Shown here piece after piece: positions 25,293 to 33,755 of a stretch of 64,000 bases of DNA. Position numbers and translations under genes: made by a program. This DNA comes from Aneurinibacillus sp. (GTDB lineage Bacteria; Bacillota; UBA5301; DYFA01). Each line of letters begins with the position of its first letter. Position 1 is the first letter of the stretch. The stretch is from positions 1 to 64,000 of the forward strand of contig DYFA01000016.1 of the NCBI GenBank assembly GCA_020725425.1. The letters run 5' to 3'. A model generated the notes under the pieces. The model was not told the origin of the DNA. It searched no databases and was given only the letters and a program-made list of their open reading frames with translations.

Positions 25293-25321
25293 TTGACAAG
25301 GCGGGTGGTTCTTCCTATAAT
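25293..25321 (+). promoter_or_regulatory. Perfect consensus promoter of the Tad pilus operon
   Basis: TTGACA (25293-25298), exactly 17 bases, TATAAT (25316-25321). Both hexamers match sigma-A consensus at every base. It lies in an AT-rich island within GC-rich DNA and leads into a ~145-base untranslated leader that carries Spo0A-like boxes. Confidence 0.85.
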
Positions 25322-25354
25322 GCAATTACACGATATGACGTGATTGGCGATGAT

Positions 25355-25404
25355 TTATCGACATATTTCGACATGATATCGCCTCTGAATGCTATTTCGA
25401 CAAA
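25355..25404 (+). promoter_or_regulatory. Cluster of Spo0A-box-like sites
   Basis: The Spo0A core TGTCGAA occurs on the minus strand exactly at 25367-25373 and 25396-25402 (the latter within TTTCGACAAA, a full 0A box). A six-of-seven match lies at 25357-25363, exactly 10 bp from the first. Further exact cores lie at 25472-25478 (over the first pilin start) and 25862-25868. They sit downstream of the -10 element, so binding would be expected to repress. Spo0A itself is not in the window. Confidence 0.6.
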
Positions 25405-25470
25405 ATTCGTCATCTTCGGCTGAAGCGAGAAGCAAGATTGCACCTAGAAACGGTGGGCGGGGAGTTGGCA

Positions 25471-25632
25471 ATGTCGAAAAAAGCGACACCGGTGAACGGT
25501 CAGGCCCTGGTGGAGTACGTGCTGGTGCTTGGCCTGATTTCGGCAGTGCTGGGGTTGCTCGGGCGGCTTTTGCGGACGGCAATTCTCATAGCCCAAGCCC
25601 GCTTCAGCGCCGGGGCGGCGCTCTTGCCCTAG
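25471..25632 (+). CDS. Flp-type pilin-like protein 1
   Basis: A 53-residue prepilin-like protein. A short basic leader (MSKKATPVNG) is followed by QALVEYVLVLGLISAVLG, the Gly-x-x-x-x-Glu-Tyr pattern of Flp pilins with glutamate at +5 and tyrosine at +6 after the cleavage glycine, then a single hydrophobic helix. GGGGAG lies six bases before the ATG. It is the first gene of the operon; compared with the next pilin it has a shorter polar tail. Confidence 0.75.
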   Translation: MSKKATPVNGQALVEYVLVLGLISAVLGLLGRLLRTAILIAQARFSAGAALLP

Positions 25633-25684: not shown

Positions 25685-25852
25685 GTGAGGCAAGTTTGGC
25701 TGAGGTTGCGGAACGAGGAAGCCGGACAGAGCATGGCGGAGTACGGGCTGCTCACTGCCCTGATCGCAGTGGCATGCATCGTTTCCGTGCGAGCCTTGGG
25801 CGGAGCGATAACAACCAAGTTCACTAAGCTTGCCGCGGAGATTGTCAAGTAG
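25685..25852 (+). CDS. flp: Flp/Fap-type pilin 2 (probable major pilin)
   Basis: A 55-residue classical Flp prepilin. The leader MRQVWLRLRNEEAG ends in the cleavage glycine, followed by QSMAEYGLLTALIAVACIV, with the glutamate-tyrosine pair characteristic of type IVb pilins, and a C-terminal amphipathic part (FTKLAAEIVK). GGGGGG upstream of GTG 25685 provides a ribosome site. After peptidase cleavage it would form the pilus fibre. No prepilin peptidase gene is found nearby. Confidence 0.88.
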   Translation: MRQVWLRLRNEEAGQSMAEYGLLTALIAVACIVSVRALGGAITTKFTKLAAEIVK

Positions 25853-25897
25853 AACTCGTACTTCGACAACTCAAAAAATAAGGTACTGGCTGGTGAC

Positions 25898-26332: not shown

Positions 26333-27030
26333 TGGAGAGGTCGGCGGCGGGCGAGCGTGGACAGGTCGTGGTGGCGGCGGTTCTGGCGGTAGTTCTGGCC
26401 GGCCTCGCCTGGGAGGCGCTGGTTACCGCCTGGGCAGCCACCAGGGACCGCCTGGTGGTTCAGAACAGCTTGGACGCTGGGGTAACTACCGGAGCGGCTG
26501 TGTTGGCGGACGGCCTCAACACGCTGGCCATCATAAACCGGGCGTTGCTGGCATTAGGGATCACCGCCATGCTGGGAAGAGGGGAGTACGCCTACTGGGC
26601 CGCCCAACTGCAGCGGGCTCAGGACGAAGTGATCCGTCGCACGCCGGCTCTGGCCAAACAGGCGGCGTGGGGAACGGCGGTGGGGTTGGGCGCCCAGGGG
26701 GTCCGCTTCCCCCCCGGCGCCGGTGGGCAGTGGCCGAGTCTCATGGTGCGCCGGGTATACCTCCTTCCCTGGCTCTTGGGCTCCCAGTTCCCGCTCTGGA
26801 TCGCCGATGACCTGCACCCGGTCAGGGATCGGCGCTGGGGTAACCGGGTGGTGTACCTTGAAGGATGGAGGCTGAACCGTCGGGGAGCGGGCCAACTGCC
26901 GTTCCGCGCCAGGGCGGGAGCCGCGGCGTCCAGAAGAGGCGGGGGCCGAAGCAGTTGGCCCCTGCTCGCCACAGACTTCGACAGCCGGTTGATCCCCTTT
27001 GGGGGAGAAGAGGGGGCCGGTCACCGATGA
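26332..27030 (+). CDS. TadG/TadE-like Tad-associated protein
   Basis: A 232-residue protein starting with a prepilin-like segment (GERGQVVVAAVLAVVLAGLAWEALVTAW, of which the hydrophobic part is about residues 12-33). The following NSLDAGVTTGAAVLADGLNTLAIINR resembles the stretch after the helix in Tad-associated TadG-like proteins. The C-terminal half is basic and without clear features. The start overlaps the upstream stop, and its own stop overlaps the next ATG (ATGA), so the three tadE/G genes are tightly coupled. Confidence 0.62.
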   Translation: MERSAAGERGQVVVAAVLAVVLAGLAWEALVTAWAATRDRLVVQNSLDAGVTTGAAVLADGLNTLAIINRALLALGITAMLGRGEYAYWAAQLQRAQDEVIRRTPALAKQAAWGTAVGLGAQGVRFPPGAGGQWPSLMVRRVYLLPWLLGSQFPLWIADDLHPVRDRRWGNRVVYLEGWRLNRRGAGQLPFRARAGAAASRRGGGRSSWPLLATDFDSRLIPFGGEEGAGHR

Positions 27031-27434
27031 GTTGTCCGCAGGCAGTCAGCGGCAAACGTTCAGTCGGCACCTCTCCCAGCGGACAGGCCCTGATCGAATT
27101 GATCCTTGTCCTGCCCCTGCTCATCGCAACTGCGCTGGGGGGGCTGACCCTCTGCCGGCTGGCGGTGGGCCAGACCGAGGTGCGCCTTGCGGCAATTCTT
27201 GCCGCCGCGGAGCGAGATCCGGCTAGCACTGCCCGCGCTCACCTGGAACGCAACCGGGTAGTGCGGGCAGGACAGGCCGTGGTCAACGTGAGACACGCAG
27301 CCCAACTCCGCCTGATCACCGTCACTTGTCCCTTGTCTCCCGGCTGGTGGCCTGGAAAGGTCAAATCCCAGCTATACTTGACTGCAGTCGCCGGGCGCGG
27401 CCGGACGTTGCTTTGCACGAGACCAAGGAGGTGA
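27027..27434 (+). CDS. TadE-like protein
   Basis: A 135-residue protein with a 21-residue polar leader followed by SGQALIELILVLPLLIATALGG, a strong TadE signature (glycine, glutamate at position 5, hydrophobic helix with double proline-leucine). The soluble part is about 85 residues and contains two cysteines. ATG 27027 overlaps the previous stop. It is the third TadE/G-type gene in a row, as in many Tad loci with several minor pseudopilins. Confidence 0.72.
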   Translation: MSCPQAVSGKRSVGTSPSGQALIELILVLPLLIATALGGLTLCRLAVGQTEVRLAAILAAAERDPASTARAHLERNRVVRAGQAVVNVRHAAQLRLITVTCPLSPGWWPGKVKSQLYLTAVAGRGRTLLCTRPRR

Positions 27435-27438
27435 GGTC

Positions 27439-28221
27439 GTGAAAACCCATACTACCGTCATGGTCATGGCGCTGGTGACTTGCGCCCTTCTCTGGTGGAA
27501 GCTGAGCAGCCGGGCCAGCGCCCCCGCTCCGGTGCCGGAGGTTCCCCTGCCGTCGGGGTCGACCGTGATCAAGCGGCTGGAGTCGCTCGTCAACCTCCAA
27601 TGCACCCATATCACGATCGTCCGCACCACCCTGCGCCCGATGGAAGTCGATCGGTTCTACCGGGCCAGACTTGCGGCACTGGGGTGGCGGGAAGAGACCA
27701 GAGAGGCTCTCCCCGGTACGGACCGGCGTCCTTTACTGTTCCGCCGGGAGACGTGGGAGTGTACGACGTTCGCTTTTCCCGACCTGGAGCGGCAGACCAC
27801 CAATCTTCTGCTGCACTTGCGCTCGGCCGGTGCCGGACCGCGGCGGCGTCTGCTCAATCGGGGAGCGCTTGCCAGCCGGTTGAGCGGTTTCCCTCTGTTC
27901 CCGGGGGTCGGCGGCGCATTGCTGATTGAGGACGGAAGCTGCACCGGCCCGGCCACGCTTCTGTTCGAAACGGAGGCGCCGCTGACCAGGGTGGTGGAGT
28001 TCTACCGCCGCCACTTGAGTGGCGGCGGCCGGCCGTTCCCCGCCACGAGCGAGGAAGGCGACTGGGCATCCGGCACATTCCGGTTTCGCCAGTGGCACGT
28101 GGCGGTCAATCTGTGCCGACGCCCTGCCGGCGGCACCTCGGCTCTGGTCATCCTCAACCGGGTAGCGGAAGGCGCCCCGGGAGCGGAGGTGGAAGCGTGC
28201 TCCGGCGGCGCAACCTTCTGA
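27439..28221 (+). CDS. Unknown Tad-operon protein with an internal duplication
   Basis: A 260-residue protein with an N-terminal membrane anchor or signal (about residues 7-23). Two similar domains follow: residues ~35-110 (LPSGSTVIKRLESL...MEVDRFYRARLAALGW) and ~145-215 (FPLFPGVGGALLIED...TRVVEFYRRHLSGGG). Each has a Pro-x-Pro/Gly-rich strand, a beta region and an FYR..L helix, a pattern seen in small secreted domains of unknown function in Bacillota. AAGGAGGTGAG precedes GTG 27439. Position between tadE and cpaB suggests a pilus-assembly or surface role. No function is assigned. Confidence 0.65.
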   Translation: MKTHTTVMVMALVTCALLWWKLSSRASAPAPVPEVPLPSGSTVIKRLESLVNLQCTHITIVRTTLRPMEVDRFYRARLAALGWREETREALPGTDRRPLLFRRETWECTTFAFPDLERQTTNLLLHLRSAGAGPRRRLLNRGALASRLSGFPLFPGVGGALLIEDGSCTGPATLLFETEAPLTRVVEFYRRHLSGGGRPFPATSEEGDWASGTFRFRQWHVAVNLCRRPAGGTSALVILNRVAEGAPGAEVEACSGGATF

Positions 28222-28985
28222 TCGGTTCCCTTCTGGCGATTCTGGCGGGGACCTTCTCTTTCGGCTACTTGACACACGCCGAACGGTCCCTGGCCGCCAG
28301 GGAGGCCCGGGAGACGGTCGTTGTGGTACGGCAGAGGATACCTGCCCTCCGTCGTTTGGACCGTTCCTTGGTCCACCTTCAGGCGATTCCCAAAACAAAT
28401 ATTCTGCCCGGTGCCTATCGTTCTCTGGACGAGGTCGTGGGCCGGGTGACGACAGTCGCACTATGGCCCGGCGACCAGGTGATCGCAGGGCGAACGGTGA
28501 GCGCGGAGGAACCCGAGGCGTTGACGGCCCGCCTGAACCCTGGAGAACGGGGTTTGTCTGTACCCGTGGAGGCTGAAACCGCCAAGGCCGTTCACCCCGG
28601 AGCCTACGTGGACGTGGTGGCGATCGCTCCTTCCAGCGACGGGCTTTCCCAGGTGTCGCGCCTAGTGCCGGCGGTGAGAGTGCTGAAGGTCTGCGGGGAC
28701 GAGCAAGCCGCCGGGGGCCTCGACCCGTGGGTAATGCTCGCGGTTTCCCCGGTGCAAGCCCAGGCCCTGGCGTTAGCGGCGGAGACAGGGAAGCTCCGGC
28801 TGGTATTACGGGCCGCCGCGGAGCGGCCGGACCAGTCCGCACCGGCGGAGCCGGCGCTTCACCGGCCGAGTGCCCAGCCAATCGAGGTCGTCCGTCAGCC
28901 AAAGAAGTCAGCCAAAGCGGTGGAGGTGATCAAGGGTGTCGAGCGGGATCCGCTGGCCGGCGGACTGGCGCCGGAGTATCGCTGA
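28197..28985 (+). CDS. cpaB: CpaB/RcpC-like SAF-domain pilus assembly protein
   Basis: A 262-residue protein with an N-terminal anchor (about residues 5-24), a SAF domain (about 35-100, VVVVRQRIPALRRLDRSLV ... VTTVALWPGDQVIAGRTV) and the RcpC-like beta region (about 115-200, RGLSVPVEAETAKAVHPGAYVDVVA). CpaB proteins sit outside the membrane and are thought to link the secretin with the pilus. GTG 28197 is preferred with GGAGGTGG upstream and overlaps the preceding gene by 25 bases; the next gene overlaps its 3' end by 50 bases. Confidence 0.85.
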   Translation: MLRRRNLLIGSLLAILAGTFSFGYLTHAERSLAAREARETVVVVRQRIPALRRLDRSLVHLQAIPKTNILPGAYRSLDEVVGRVTTVALWPGDQVIAGRTVSAEEPEALTARLNPGERGLSVPVEAETAKAVHPGAYVDVVAIAPSSDGLSQVSRLVPAVRVLKVCGDEQAAGGLDPWVMLAVSPVQAQALALAAETGKLRLVLRAAAERPDQSAPAEPALHRPSAQPIEVVRQPKKSAKAVEVIKGVERDPLAGGLAPEYR

Positions 28986-30384
28986 CGCCTGCCTGCTGAC
29001 CCTGATTCTCGGGCTGTCGTTGTTTCTGGTCGCGGGAGGGGCGGCCAGAGGCGCCGAACCTCCTGAGGTGATCGTCGTGCGCACCGGAGAATCCCGGGTG
29101 ATCACCGTCCCGGAGGTCTCGCGGGTGGCGGTGGGACAGCCGGCAGTCGCCGACGTGCGGGTGATCTCGCCAGGAGAGATCCTGGTCAACGGCAAGAGCG
29201 AAGGTCAGACCACGCTTCTTCTTTGGCCCTCGTCAGGCCGGGTCATTGAGCAGCAGGTGCGCGTCCTGTGCCCCTCCCCGGTTCTATCAGAGCGGGACAT
29301 AGAGGACCTGGTGGCCGACGAGGGCATCCGGGTGCGCAGTGTAGGAGGTTACGTGGTCGTCGACGGCCGCCCGGCGGCAGAGGGACGGCTGAGGCTCGAG
29401 CGGCTGGCGGCCCTCCTTGGGTCGAAGCTGCTCGACCTTACCGGGTCAGTCGATGAGCGCGAGGAGGACTCCGGCACGCCGGTCTCCCGACCGCGCCAGC
29501 AGGACCTGGAGTGGGTGACCGCGCTGGTGCAGCGAAACAGCGGCGGGGGCGTGGTCTTGACCCGTCAGGCTGGGAGAATCGTGCTCGAAGGCCAGGTGCC
29601 GTCCGAAGCCGCTCGGCAAACGGCGATACGGCTGGCGGAAGCCTTTTTCCCCGGGCAGGTGGTGGATGCGCTGGCGGCAGTTGAGCCAAGCGGCCTGTTT
29701 TCAATCAAGGCCAGGCTGATCGAGGTTGACCGCCAGGCCTGCCGGGAGCTGGGGCTGGAGTGGCCGGCAGAGGCGGGGGTGGGCGAGCGGAGCCTGCCCG
29801 GCGGGATGCACCTTGAACCGCTGGCCAGGCTGGAACCGCTGCTCGTCAAGCTCAAGGCGCTCGAGGACTCAGGCCGGGCCAGGATTCTCGCCGAGCCGTC
29901 CATGACGGTGATGGACGGCGCAGCAGGATGCTTCCTGGCGGGTGGGCAGATCCCGGTGCCCCTGGAAGTCGACGGACAGGCTACTGTGGAGTGGAAGGAG
30001 TACGGCGTGCGGCTCGACGTGCGGCCGGCGCTGCTGCCGTCCGGAAGGATCCGCCTGACGGTCCGGCCCGAGGTCTCCACCCTGGACTGGGCGAACGGGG
30101 TGCGACTGGGCGCCGGAACCGTTCCGGCGCTGCGCAGCCGGTGGGCAGAAACGGCCGTGGAGCAAGAGAGCGGGGACACTTTGATTCTGGCGGGGCTCTC
30201 CCTGGCGGAGGAGACTGATCACGGCGGTCGTGTGCCCGCCCTGGCCAACGTCCCTCTGCTCGGTGGCCTGTTTCGCGCCGACCGGGCTGCCCGGAGGCAG
30301 ACCGAACTGACCATCCTTTTGACGACGACCCTGGTTTCGCCTTGTCCCACAGCCGGGGAGAAGCCTGAAGGTGGTGGAGAGTAG
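28936..30384 (+). CDS. cpaC: CpaC/RcpA-like secretin
   Basis: A 482-residue secretin-family protein. A signal-like helix (about residues 17-38) is followed by the pilus-type N-terminal domain (EVIVVRTGESRVITVPEVSRVAVGQP split over residues ~43-68, ISPGEILVNGKSEG), a BON-like stretch, and the secretin core (about 275-465, ARLIEVDRQACRELG, ILAEPSMTVMDG, EYGVRLDVRPALL, VPALANVPLLGGLF). GTG 28936 has GGAGGTGAT six bases before it. Secretins normally form outer-membrane pores, so this gene in a probable monoderm is notable. It might cross the wall or be an ancestral remnant. Confidence 0.88.
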   Translation: MSSGIRWPADWRRSIADACLLTLILGLSLFLVAGGAARGAEPPEVIVVRTGESRVITVPEVSRVAVGQPAVADVRVISPGEILVNGKSEGQTTLLLWPSSGRVIEQQVRVLCPSPVLSERDIEDLVADEGIRVRSVGGYVVVDGRPAAEGRLRLERLAALLGSKLLDLTGSVDEREEDSGTPVSRPRQQDLEWVTALVQRNSGGGVVLTRQAGRIVLEGQVPSEAARQTAIRLAEAFFPGQVVDALAAVEPSGLFSIKARLIEVDRQACRELGLEWPAEAGVGERSLPGGMHLEPLARLEPLLVKLKALEDSGRARILAEPSMTVMDGAAGCFLAGGQIPVPLEVDGQATVEWKEYGVRLDVRPALLPSGRIRLTVRPEVSTLDWANGVRLGAGTVPALRSRWAETAVEQESGDTLILAGLSLAEETDHGGRVPALANVPLLGGLFRADRAARRQTELTILLTTTLVSPCPTAGEKPEGGGE

Positions 30385-30385
30385 C

Positions 30386-32263
30386 GTGGTGAGAATGGTG
30401 GAGGACCGGGAACCGGGACGGGTGGTGGTCGTCTGGGGTGGCAAGGGAGGAGTAGGATGCACTCTTGTGGCGGCCGGCCTGGCGAGGCTGTGGCACCGCC
30501 AGGGGAGAGCGGTCGCGGCGGTTCAGGCGGGAGGGAGTGTCTGCGGTGCACTGGAGCTCCTTTTGGCGCGGACGGAGGTGCCGCTCCTCGCTCTGGAGGA
30601 GCCTTCCCGCGGCGGGGCACCCTCCCTGGAACAGTCGGTCGCCGCGGTAGGTCCCCAGGGAAGGGTGGTGGTGGACTGCGGTTCACGGGAATCCCCGCTC
30701 ATGCAACGGGTGATGTCGAGAGCGGACGTTGTAGCGGTCGTGGGGACGCCTGACCTCCTCGGCCTGCGCAGCCTCACCCGCGGTCGTCGGCGGGTACTGG
30801 CTCAGGGTTTGGAGGAGCGGCGCAGCGGATACGTGCTGAACCGGCTCGGAATGCCGGGAGGACTCGGCCTGGAGGAGGTCCAGGCCCTGCTGACCTCGGA
30901 GTGTTGGGGGATTCTGCCGGACGTACCAGAGGAAGTGGTGTCGCTGATCGCAGAAGGGGTCGCCGGTCCGGGCAGCGGGTCCTGGAGTGCCGCCCTTGAA
31001 GCGCTGGCGACCCGGATCGAACAGCTTCTGTCTACCCTGCCTCCGCTTCCTCGACCGGTGAACGCCAGCCGAACCCCTCCGCCAGCGCCGGTTCCCTTGC
31101 CTTGTCAGGCCAAGCAAGCGATCCTGCAGAAGTTGGTACGCCGGTTGGGAGAGTTCGACCGGTCCGGTGATCCGGCGGTCTTGCGGCGAAGGGTCACGGA
31201 GGAAGCCGCGGCGGTGGTGGAGGAAACGGTGGAGACGCGACGCCTCCCCCGGCGGGATGTGGACGCGATAATCCTCCAGCTGGTCGACGAGGTCCTGGGC
31301 TTGGGCGCCCTTGAAGACCTCATCCGGGATCCCGAGGTGACGGAGATCATGATCAATGGGCCGGCGCACGTGTACGTGGAGAAAGGGGGGCGGATTCAAC
31401 AGGTGCCGTGTCACTTTGCCTCCCCGGAGGACATCATCCGCTTGGTGGACAGAATCATCGGTCCGCTGGGACGGCGAATCGACGAGAGCAGCCCTATGGT
31501 GGACGCCCGCCTGCCTGACGGCTCCCGTCTCAACGCAGTGATTCCGCCGTTGGCGCTGGATGGCCCGCTTGTGACCATCCGCCGGTTCGGGGTGGCGGCC
31601 ATGACGATGGACGACCTGGTAGCGGCTGGAACCCTGGCCCCCGGTCTCGCCCGGCAACTGAAGCAGGCAGTGGTGGCGAAGAAAAACATCCTCCTCTCGG
31701 GAGGGACCGGGACGGGCAAGACGACGCTGTTGAACGCCCTTTCCGGCTTCATTCCGTCAACAGAGCGGATCATCACGATCGAGGACGCGGCCGAACTCCG
31801 GCTTCAGCAGCAGCACGTCGTGCGGCTGGAGGCCCGGCCCCCCAACGTGGAGGGGCTGGGCGCGGTCACGATTCGCGACCTCGTCCGGAACGCATTGCGG
31901 ATGAGGCCAGACCGCATCATCGTGGGCGAAGTGCGCGGGGCCGAAGCCCTTGACATGCTGCAGGCGATGAACACAGGGCACAGCGGGTCGATGGCGACGA
32001 TTCACGCCAATTCGGCGGCTGATGCCCTGTCCCGCCTCGAAACGATGACGCTCATGGCCAACGTCGCCTTGCCACTCAAGGTCGTCCGCGACCAGATCGC
32101 CGCCGCCGTCGACTTCGTCGTCCACCTCGAACGGCAACCGGACGGCAGTCGCCGGGTGACCGAAGTGGTACGGTTGAGCGGCACCTCTGCAGGGCGCTAT
32201 CAGACCCGGCGATGTTCCGGGGAAGAAGAGGAGGGCGCCGAGCCTGAGGTCGCGGAAGCTTGA
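30386..32263 (+). CDS. tadA: Fusion of CpaE/TadZ-like ATPase domain with TadA/CpaF secretion ATPase
   Basis: A 625-residue protein with two Tad functions in one chain. Residues ~1-215 form a MinD/ParA-like domain as in TadZ/CpaE. Its deviant Walker A is GGKGGVGCT, keeping the signature lysine but with cysteine in place of the P-loop lysine. A Pro-rich linker (~220-245) leads to a complete TadA/CpaF ATPase: [20 protein letters not shown], Walker [10 protein letters not shown] (~437), [25 protein letters not shown] and the [11 protein letters not shown] His box. TadA powers pilus assembly; TadZ localises the machine. GTG 30386 follows GGAG; GTG 30371 is an alternative. Confidence 0.9.
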
Positions 32264-32336: not shown

Positions 32337-32846
32337 ATGATTCTCTCCCTGACCGGCGGCCTGCGGGCCGGGCTCAGCCTCAACCAGGCGCTGGCCCTGG
32401 CGGCGGCGGACACACCGCCGCCGCTGGGCCCGGAAGTACGGCGTTGCACGGAAGAGGTACGACTCGGGCTCTCCTGGGCCGAGGCCTTGGACAGCCTGCG
32501 GTGCCGCCTGCCCGGAGAAGGTCTGACTTTGCTGGTGTGGGCTCTGGCGGTCCACCGCCGGACGGGAGGGGATCTGCCTGCTCTGTGTGACCGGCTGCAT
32601 GATCTTTTGGGGGAGCGGCGGAGGCTGCGCGCCAAACTGGCCGCGGCGACTGCCCAGAGCCGGCTGAGCGCAGGAGTGGTGGCGGTGGTGCCCTTCTTCC
32701 TGGCTCTGACTCTCCGTCAGCTGGCGCCCGACTACCTGGCACCTCTCTTGCACACGCCGGCAGGCTGGGCTCTCTTGACCTGGGCCGGCCTTATGGACGC
32801 GGTGGGGGTAATGCTGATCTTGCGCTTGTCGACGCTGAAGTGGTGA
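32337..32846 (+). CDS. tadB: TadB-like inner-membrane platform protein, N-terminus short
   Basis: From the first conventional start, 169 residues with the T2SS F-type domain (SLTGGLRAGLSLNQALALAA; GLTLLVWALAVHRRTGGDLP) and two C-terminal membrane helices. The frame is open further upstream, and codons from about 32244 read [13 protein letters not shown]...RKAEEQLPE, which looks like the sequence that normally precedes this domain. AGGAGG at 32229-32234 lies nine bases before a CTG at 32244, so an unusual CTG start is possible. Either way the N-terminal membrane helices of typical TadB are missing. Confidence 0.7.
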   Translation: MILSLTGGLRAGLSLNQALALAAADTPPPLGPEVRRCTEEVRLGLSWAEALDSLRCRLPGEGLTLLVWALAVHRRTGGDLPALCDRLHDLLGERRRLRAKLAAATAQSRLSAGVVAVVPFFLALTLRQLAPDYLAPLLHTPAGWALLTWAGLMDAVGVMLILRLSTLKW

Positions 32847-32861: not shown

Positions 32862-33755
32862 GTGGTCCCGACGGCGCTCAAGTGGCTGGCTGCCCTGGCC
32901 TGGGCCGCGACCTGCTTGGTGATAGTCGACCTGTTCCGCCCTCTGCGGCGAGATGAAGCGGTCTGGCGGGTCATCGAACCGGGAGGCTCGGTTGATGCTC
33001 ATGCCGTGCTCTCCCTCTGGTTACGCCGGTGGGGAGGCCGCGTTCGCCGGGTGACGCCGCAACCCCTCCTGCGTTGGATGGAGCGAACCTCCGCCCATCT
33101 TCCCGATTCTCTGGGTTGCGACGGGTGGTTCGGCCTGACGGTGGCGTTCGGCCTGGCGGGGGCGGTGTGGCTCCTCCCTTCGGGAGAGACCTGGCGCCTG
33201 ACGGCGGACGGTCTCTGTCGGGTCGTGGGGCGGATGCTCACCGGGTTCGCCCTGGGGAGCAGCGGCGCGTTGGCCTGGATGCACCTCCGGGCGACCGAGC
33301 GGCGCAGTCGGGTCGAGCGTGACCTGCCGGGGATGGTCGACCTGCTCCTCCTGGGGCTCGAGGGCGGGCTGAGTCTCAGCAACGCCCTCGGGGAGGCGGC
33401 GCGCCGCCTCGAGGGACCGCTCGGAGAGGAGCTAGCGGAAGTGGACCGGCAGGTGGCACTGGGTCTCCCCCGGGCTGAGGCGTTAAGAGCGATGGCCGCT
33501 CGCCTGGGAATCCGAGAGTTGGAGACCGTCGTCGCTCTGATCAATCAGGCCGAAAGTCTGGGTAGCGGCGTCACCAAAGCCGTGGGGGCTATTGCCAAGC
33601 GGTTGCGGACGAGCCGCGTGTTGACGGCGGAGCGCCGGGCGGGCGAGGCGCCGGTGAAGATGCTTTTCCCCCTGGTCTTCTGCCTTTTTCCCAGCGTGCT
33701 GGTTTTGCTGGTCGGCCCCTTGCTGATCAGCAGGGGCCGTGCCCTGAGCTGGTGA
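32862..33755 (+). CDS. tadC: TadC-like inner-membrane platform protein
   Basis: A 297-residue T2SS F-domain protein: membrane helices near residues 7-25, 88-105 and 122-145, the F domain (about 150-260, VERDLPGMVDLLLLGLEGGLSLSNALGEAA split at this length, then LINQAESLGSGV) and two C-terminal helices (KMLFPLVFCLFPSVLVLLVG). It pairs with TadB to form the platform on which TadA acts. GTG 32862 follows GAGGAGGGGGG. It ends the Tad operon. Confidence 0.87.
   Translation: MVPTALKWLAALAWAATCLVIVDLFRPLRRDEAVWRVIEPGGSVDAHAVLSLWLRRWGGRVRRVTPQPLLRWMERTSAHLPDSLGCDGWFGLTVAFGLAGAVWLLPSGETWRLTADGLCRVVGRMLTGFALGSSGALAWMHLRATERRSRVERDLPGMVDLLLLGLEGGLSLSNALGEAARRLEGPLGEELAEVDRQVALGLPRAEALRAMAARLGIRELETVVALINQAESLGSGVTKAVGAIAKRLRTSRVLTAERRAGEAPVKMLFPLVFCLFPSVLVLLVGPLLISRGRALSW

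Follow-up and report, generated by a model that had tools for sequence, protein, structure and literature searches.

Paired Spo0A boxes predicted downstream of a Tad pilus promoter suggest that the pilus operon is repressed on entry into sporulation

The present study suggests that Spo0A directly represses a Tad pilus operon. Two tandem pairs of predicted Spo0A boxes lie behind the operon's promoter in a stretch of 64,000 nucleotides (64 kb), hereafter the window. A preliminary description had proposed Spo0A sites here, and the proposal is well supported by boxes in tandem at 10 bp, by the same motif at spoIIE, by a canonical Spo0A in the same genome, and by box arrays in three related tad leaders. 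Binding of Spo0A to these boxes is thus very likely. For the whole statement, that Spo0A~P binds downstream of the promoter and represses the tad operon when cells enter sporulation, we estimate a probability of about 0.68 from the sequence.

Pfam searches recovered a Flp pilin, RcpC/CpaB, a secretin, a CpaF/TadA ATPase, TadB and TadC, which define a Tad/Flp operon. The genes are as follows.

25471 to 25632, plus strand: flp1, a short prepilin-like ORF of 53 aa (containing GQALVEYVLVLG), assigned from its position and a flp-like motif as in relatives; a Pfam search of it gave no match
25685 to 25852, plus strand: flp2, Flp/Fap pilin (PF04964)
27024 to 27434, plus strand: TadE-like protein (Pfam, 22.5 bits, just under the cut-off)
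28173 to 28985, plus strand: RcpC/CpaB (PF16976)
28936 to 30384, plus strand: RcpA/CpaC secretin (PF00263)
30371 to 32263, plus strand: CpaE-CpaF-like fusion with a ParA/MinD-type N-terminus and a T2SSE ATPase (TadA) (Pfam)
32337 to 32846, plus strand: TadB-like membrane protein (Pfam T2SSF)
32862 to 33755, plus strand: TadC-like membrane protein (Pfam T2SSF)

CpaE-like and CpaF-like domains are joined in one 630-aa ORF (30371-32263); N-terminally extended CpaF homologues occur in several relatives. Ahead of the operon, a sigmaA promoter (TTGACA-17-TATAAT, 25293-25321, plus strand) matches the consensus hexamers at 12/12 positions, which bears out the earlier claim of a perfect promoter upstream of the sites. 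Transcription is predicted to start near 25328, and the leader comprises the 150 nt between the promoter and the flp1 ATG at 25471. Within it lie the two pairs, each with its boxes one helical turn apart.

25357 to 25373, minus strand: predicted tandem Spo0A box pair 1, ATCGACA at 25357-25363 (6/7) and TTCGACA at 25367-25373 (7/7), 10-bp spacing
25396 to 25412, minus strand: predicted tandem Spo0A box pair 2, TTCGACA at 25396-25402 (7/7) and TTCGTCA at 25406-25412 (6/7), 10-bp spacing

On the minus strand, pair 1 reads TGTCGAA-ATA-TGTCGAT, an exact match to TGTCGAWNNNTGTCGAW in the genome-wide search, and pair 2 reads TGACGAA-TTT-TGTCGAA. All four boxes share one orientation, the pairs start 39 bp apart, and the two were also detected as one imperfect 25-nt direct repeat. 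In the core TGTCGAA, the bases that Spo0A contacts are G2, C4 and G5 (PMC3485338); these three bases are kept in 4/4 leader boxes (TGTCGAT, TGTCGAA, TGTCGAA and TGACGAA). The preliminary description had listed four exact cores, at 25367 and 25396 (TTCGACA, minus strand), 25472 (plus strand) and 25862 (minus strand). It had also noted a 6/7 match at 25357, offset from the first core by exactly 10 bp. All these positions are right, and as Spo0A sites the cores at 25367 and 25396 belong to the array, whereas the other two are incidental. The core at 25472 was dropped as an array member, being the first codons ATG-TCG-AAA of flp1, whose start ATGTCGAAA creates it by chance; that at 25862 was dropped as isolated, without a partner at 10 bp, and positioned after flp2. 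The box at 25406 (6/7), exactly 10 bp from 25396, had been missed and completes the two-pair symmetry. Across the whole 64 kb the exact core is not enriched (7 found against 4.75 expected). Of 5000 dinucleotide-preserving shuffles of the leader, none scored as high as its two phased pairs, and therefore the local box cluster is not due to chance.

Does the motif mark Spo0A targets elsewhere in this genome? Genome-wide statements here are pattern searches of the 2.38-Mb draft genome. The pattern WTCGACANNNTTCGWCA, built from the window's tad leader, had three exact matches, namely the two leader pairs and one at C55:9338 directly upstream of spoIIE, the latter gene being identified by Pfam SpoIIE_N (259 bits). 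The general tandem form TGTCGAWNNNTGTCGAW, with at most one mismatch, had four: both leader pairs, the spoIIE promoter, and the region upstream of a Spo0E-like gene, a small ORF whose Spo0E-like match is weak and below the Pfam cut-off. A reversed control pattern gave 0 matches in the same search. spoIIE is a classical Spo0A target, and since the motif was derived from the tad leader, its reappearance there constitutes an independent test. Furthermore, in 6/7 genomes of the class, spoIIE has a -10-like hexamer that lacks a -35 and is preceded at 21-22 bp by TTCGACA (in G001 by ATCGACA). This fixed layout is the geometry expected for Spo0A activation and calibrates the motif. Counting against the Spo0A reading, no tandem pairs were found at spoIIA, spoIIG or spo0A of the window's genome.

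A canonical Spo0A (L001) is encoded next to a SpoIVB-like gene in the window's genome. The recognition helix of this Spo0A, LVERNLRHVIEHTW, matches RVERAIRHAIEVAW of the 1LQ1 and 1FC3 proteins with VERxxRHxI intact, as suits the TGTCGAA core. Besides, each genome of the class has at least two Spo0A_C proteins, which raises the question of whether the second one binds the tad leader. This protein (L002, C56:22604-22921 of the window's genome) has an RsmB-like neighbour and counterparts in all class genomes. Its helix GGVEAAIRNAILTAW reads VEAAIRNAIL, against VERxxRHxI, in all members read; where canonical Spo0A has an Arg and the His, this helix has Ala and Asn. With such a helix a changed specificity is expected, and the protein probably reads a different DNA sequence, so that we consider it very unlikely to be the binder.

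Conservation in related leaders, on which the preliminary description had let its reading depend, was found in part. The window's genome (G000) was compared with six genomes of the same class (G001-G006), none of the same genus, family or order. Their syntenic tad operons have flp1, then flp2 with GQSMAEYGLLTALIAV, then the remainder; the leader is complete in G001, G002, G003, G005 and G006 and cut by a contig end in G004. Phased arrays, of 2, 4 and 8 boxes, occur in three of the five complete leaders. G001 has one 10-bp pair (score reached in 8/5000 shuffles). In G005, four boxes follow one another every 10 bp (3/5000). G003 has eight boxes, some degenerate, grouped as two phased sets of four that are separated by 11 bp (0/5000). 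All three arrays lie downstream of TTGACA..TATAAT. The eight-box array is unusual. G002 and G006 have the promoter and no array, though both genomes encode Spo0A. With the window included, boxes are thus present in 4/6 complete class leaders (G000, G001, G003 and G005) and absent from G002 and G006. Since G003, G005 and G006 belong to one family, gain or loss of the array has occurred even inside a single family, and the boxes of class tad leaders appear to undergo turnover. Box number and orientation vary between class genomes, the window's boxes running opposite to those of G001, G003 and G005; this variation and the two leaders that lack boxes count against the Spo0A reading. Outside this group of leaders, no phased array was found in any of 24 tad leaders from the wider genome contig set, and about 30 other tad leaders of the phylum, including the second tad locus of the window's genome, yielded only one marginal pair with two mismatches. 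Occurring in class leaders and almost nowhere among more than 50 others, the array is specific to this type of operon in the class.

Alternatively, the repeats could have arisen by chance, or could function only as RNA or through DNA shape. The absence of an array from two of the six class leaders would fit such an explanation, as would a weak hairpin that the boxes overlap in the window's leader; however, the leader RNA folds no better than shuffled sequence (z -0.55). The shuffle tests and the 10-bp phasing argue in the opposite direction, and so do the co-occurrence of the motif with spoIIE and the independent arrays (2, 4 and 8 boxes), which differ from one another in sequence and orientation. 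This explanation is therefore hardly probable. In addition, an Rfam search of the window's leader down to E 5 found no known riboswitch, its two chance matches both lying outside the leader.

Another regulator that binds heptads at 3-bp spacing could occupy the leader, CtsR being the obvious one. CtsR operators consist of heptads that are directly repeated and separated by 3 bp, and CtsR is encoded in 7/7 class genomes. At the ctsR promoter of the window's own genome, however, the sequence is AGTCAAA GGTCAGA GAA GGTCAGG, and in G001 it is GGTCAAA GAA GGTCAGA. These heptads contain GTCA with a purine at position 1, whereas the tad boxes contain GTCG (TGTCGAW) or read TGACGAA. CtsR was therefore disfavoured as the leader binder, as the tad boxes are not of the RGTCAAA type. 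A further argument against it is that the tad motif recurs at spoIIE, where its distance to the -10 is constant. An exact TGTCGAA-GAA-TGTCGAA pair about 200 bp upstream of ctsR in G001 (L189:1501-1517; G001:C97:21886-21902) is unexplained and keeps a small doubt alive, so that CtsR retains a very low probability.

As to the direction of control, we infer the switching off of the pilus at sporulation from the position of the boxes downstream of a near-consensus promoter; dependence on the phosphorylation of Spo0A is presumed. A position behind the promoter does not by itself make a box repressive. Spo0A might bind the leader and activate the operon, or act both ways at different Spo0A~P levels. 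In other bacteria, early Spo0A~P promotes surface and matrix functions. Spo0A is presumably an activator at spoIIE in the same class, and the window's boxes are oriented as the spoIIE box is. The boxes of G001, G003 and G005, however, point the opposite way and always lie behind the promoter. Furthermore, both hexamers of the window's promoter are already perfect, and a complete promoter should need no activator. When the leader sequence was read, no -10-like hexamer was seen 21-22 bp downstream of either pair, which also speaks against activation. Activation thus appears unlikely. The complete promoter, the boxes at about +30 to +85 and the missing hexamer together make repression the most likely outcome.

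Spo0A repression could then proceed as follows. During growth, the consensus sigmaA promoter would drive the tad operon. On starvation, Spo0A~P would rise, and dimers of canonical Spo0A would bind both 10-bp-phased pairs. Occupying about +30 to +46 and about +69 to +85, the two Spo0A-bound pairs would repress tad transcription, most likely by forming a roadblock that stops the polymerase from escaping or elongating. Such a roadblock has been described in B. subtilis, where the boxes that follow the sigmaA promoters of abrB and spo0A (Pv) exert repression once polymerase has bound (PMC12090719). Like the window, abrB has TGTCGAA-type boxes downstream of a sigmaA promoter, and it is repressed by Spo0A~P (PMC12090719). 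In contrast to abrB, which encodes a transition-state regulator, the window has a pilus operon with two separate pairs (and G003 up to eight boxes), for which repression is inferred. The vegetative sigmaA promoter of spo0A, Pv, is likewise followed by several boxes (0A1-0A3) and lowered by Spo0A~P (PMC12090719); unlike at spo0A, no second sigmaH promoter was identified for the window's operon, and its control would not be autoregulation. Direct Spo0A repression outside the core sporulation genes is also known in the clostridial line, at the C. difficile sin locus (PMC7643835). That target is non-structural, a regulator pair, whereas the window's is a structural operon.

The mechanism is thus already known, and it is the target, a Tad pilus operon, that would be new to the Spo0A regulon. 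Our literature search found no paper with both Spo0A and the Tad pilus, an absence that is not proof. Spo0A is known for sporulation, biofilm and competence. If our reading is true, it also directly governs a Tad pilus operon, and the choice to sporulate is tied to surface attachment in a class that has been little studied. In that case TGTCGAWNNNTGTCGAW, calibrated on spoIIE, is a motif with which Spo0A regulons can be predicted in sporulating bacteria that have not been cultured.

In the relatives, which share the TTGACA..TATAAT promoter type, a phased array or an RNA element follows the promoter. The RNA element, of 80-110 nt, was seen in five class relatives directly upstream of flp1, behind the array or, where there is none, behind the corresponding place.

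L142, 9210 to 9313, minus strand: flp1-leader RNA element
L143, 9292 to 9401, minus strand: flp1-leader RNA element
L148, 2601 to 2679, plus strand: flp1-leader RNA element
L200, 317 to 398, minus strand: flp1-leader RNA element
L252, 477 to 558, minus strand: flp1-leader RNA element

It consists of a long hairpin with compensatory changes and a UGGCNG loop, a second helix near GCRACC, and then a U-rich run. A model built from four leaders found the fifth (G006) next to flp1 with an E value of 2.5e-9 genome-wide, and Rfam gave no match for the element in the three leaders scanned. In the window, the covariance model found the element absent, the best score (4.6 bits) lying outside the leader on the other strand.

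The second tad operon of the window's genome carries a c-di-GMP-I riboswitch (76.6 bits) in its flp leader (L151:1826-1914, plus strand, contig C41) and has no 0A boxes. Like the window's operon, it has a flp leader under a lifestyle signal; the window's locus differs in having boxes and no riboswitch match. Given this riboswitch, the two tad operons appear to answer different signals. A broader proposal, which we regard as tentative and on balance doubtful, is that the class tad leader is a composite switch. Two to eight phased Spo0A boxes would nucleate a roadblock of cooperatively bound Spo0A~P, and the number of boxes would determine how strong it is. In relatives, though not in the window, a structured leader RNA that has no Rfam match would come next, and the two pili of the window's genome would answer separately to sporulation and c-di-GMP.

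Degenerate or multiple boxes were also noted at other genes. A degenerate tandem pair lies upstream of a GGDEF diguanylate cyclase gene in the window's genome (L158:2083-2099; C24:87082-87098), a possible link between Spo0A and c-di-GMP. In G003 (L197:1490-1520, contig C26) and G005 (L210:880-927, contig C54), three tandem 0A-type boxes at 10 bp precede one conserved gene; its product, a DUF5937 protein, has an ArsR-type HTH and is a candidate for a regulator activated by Spo0A.
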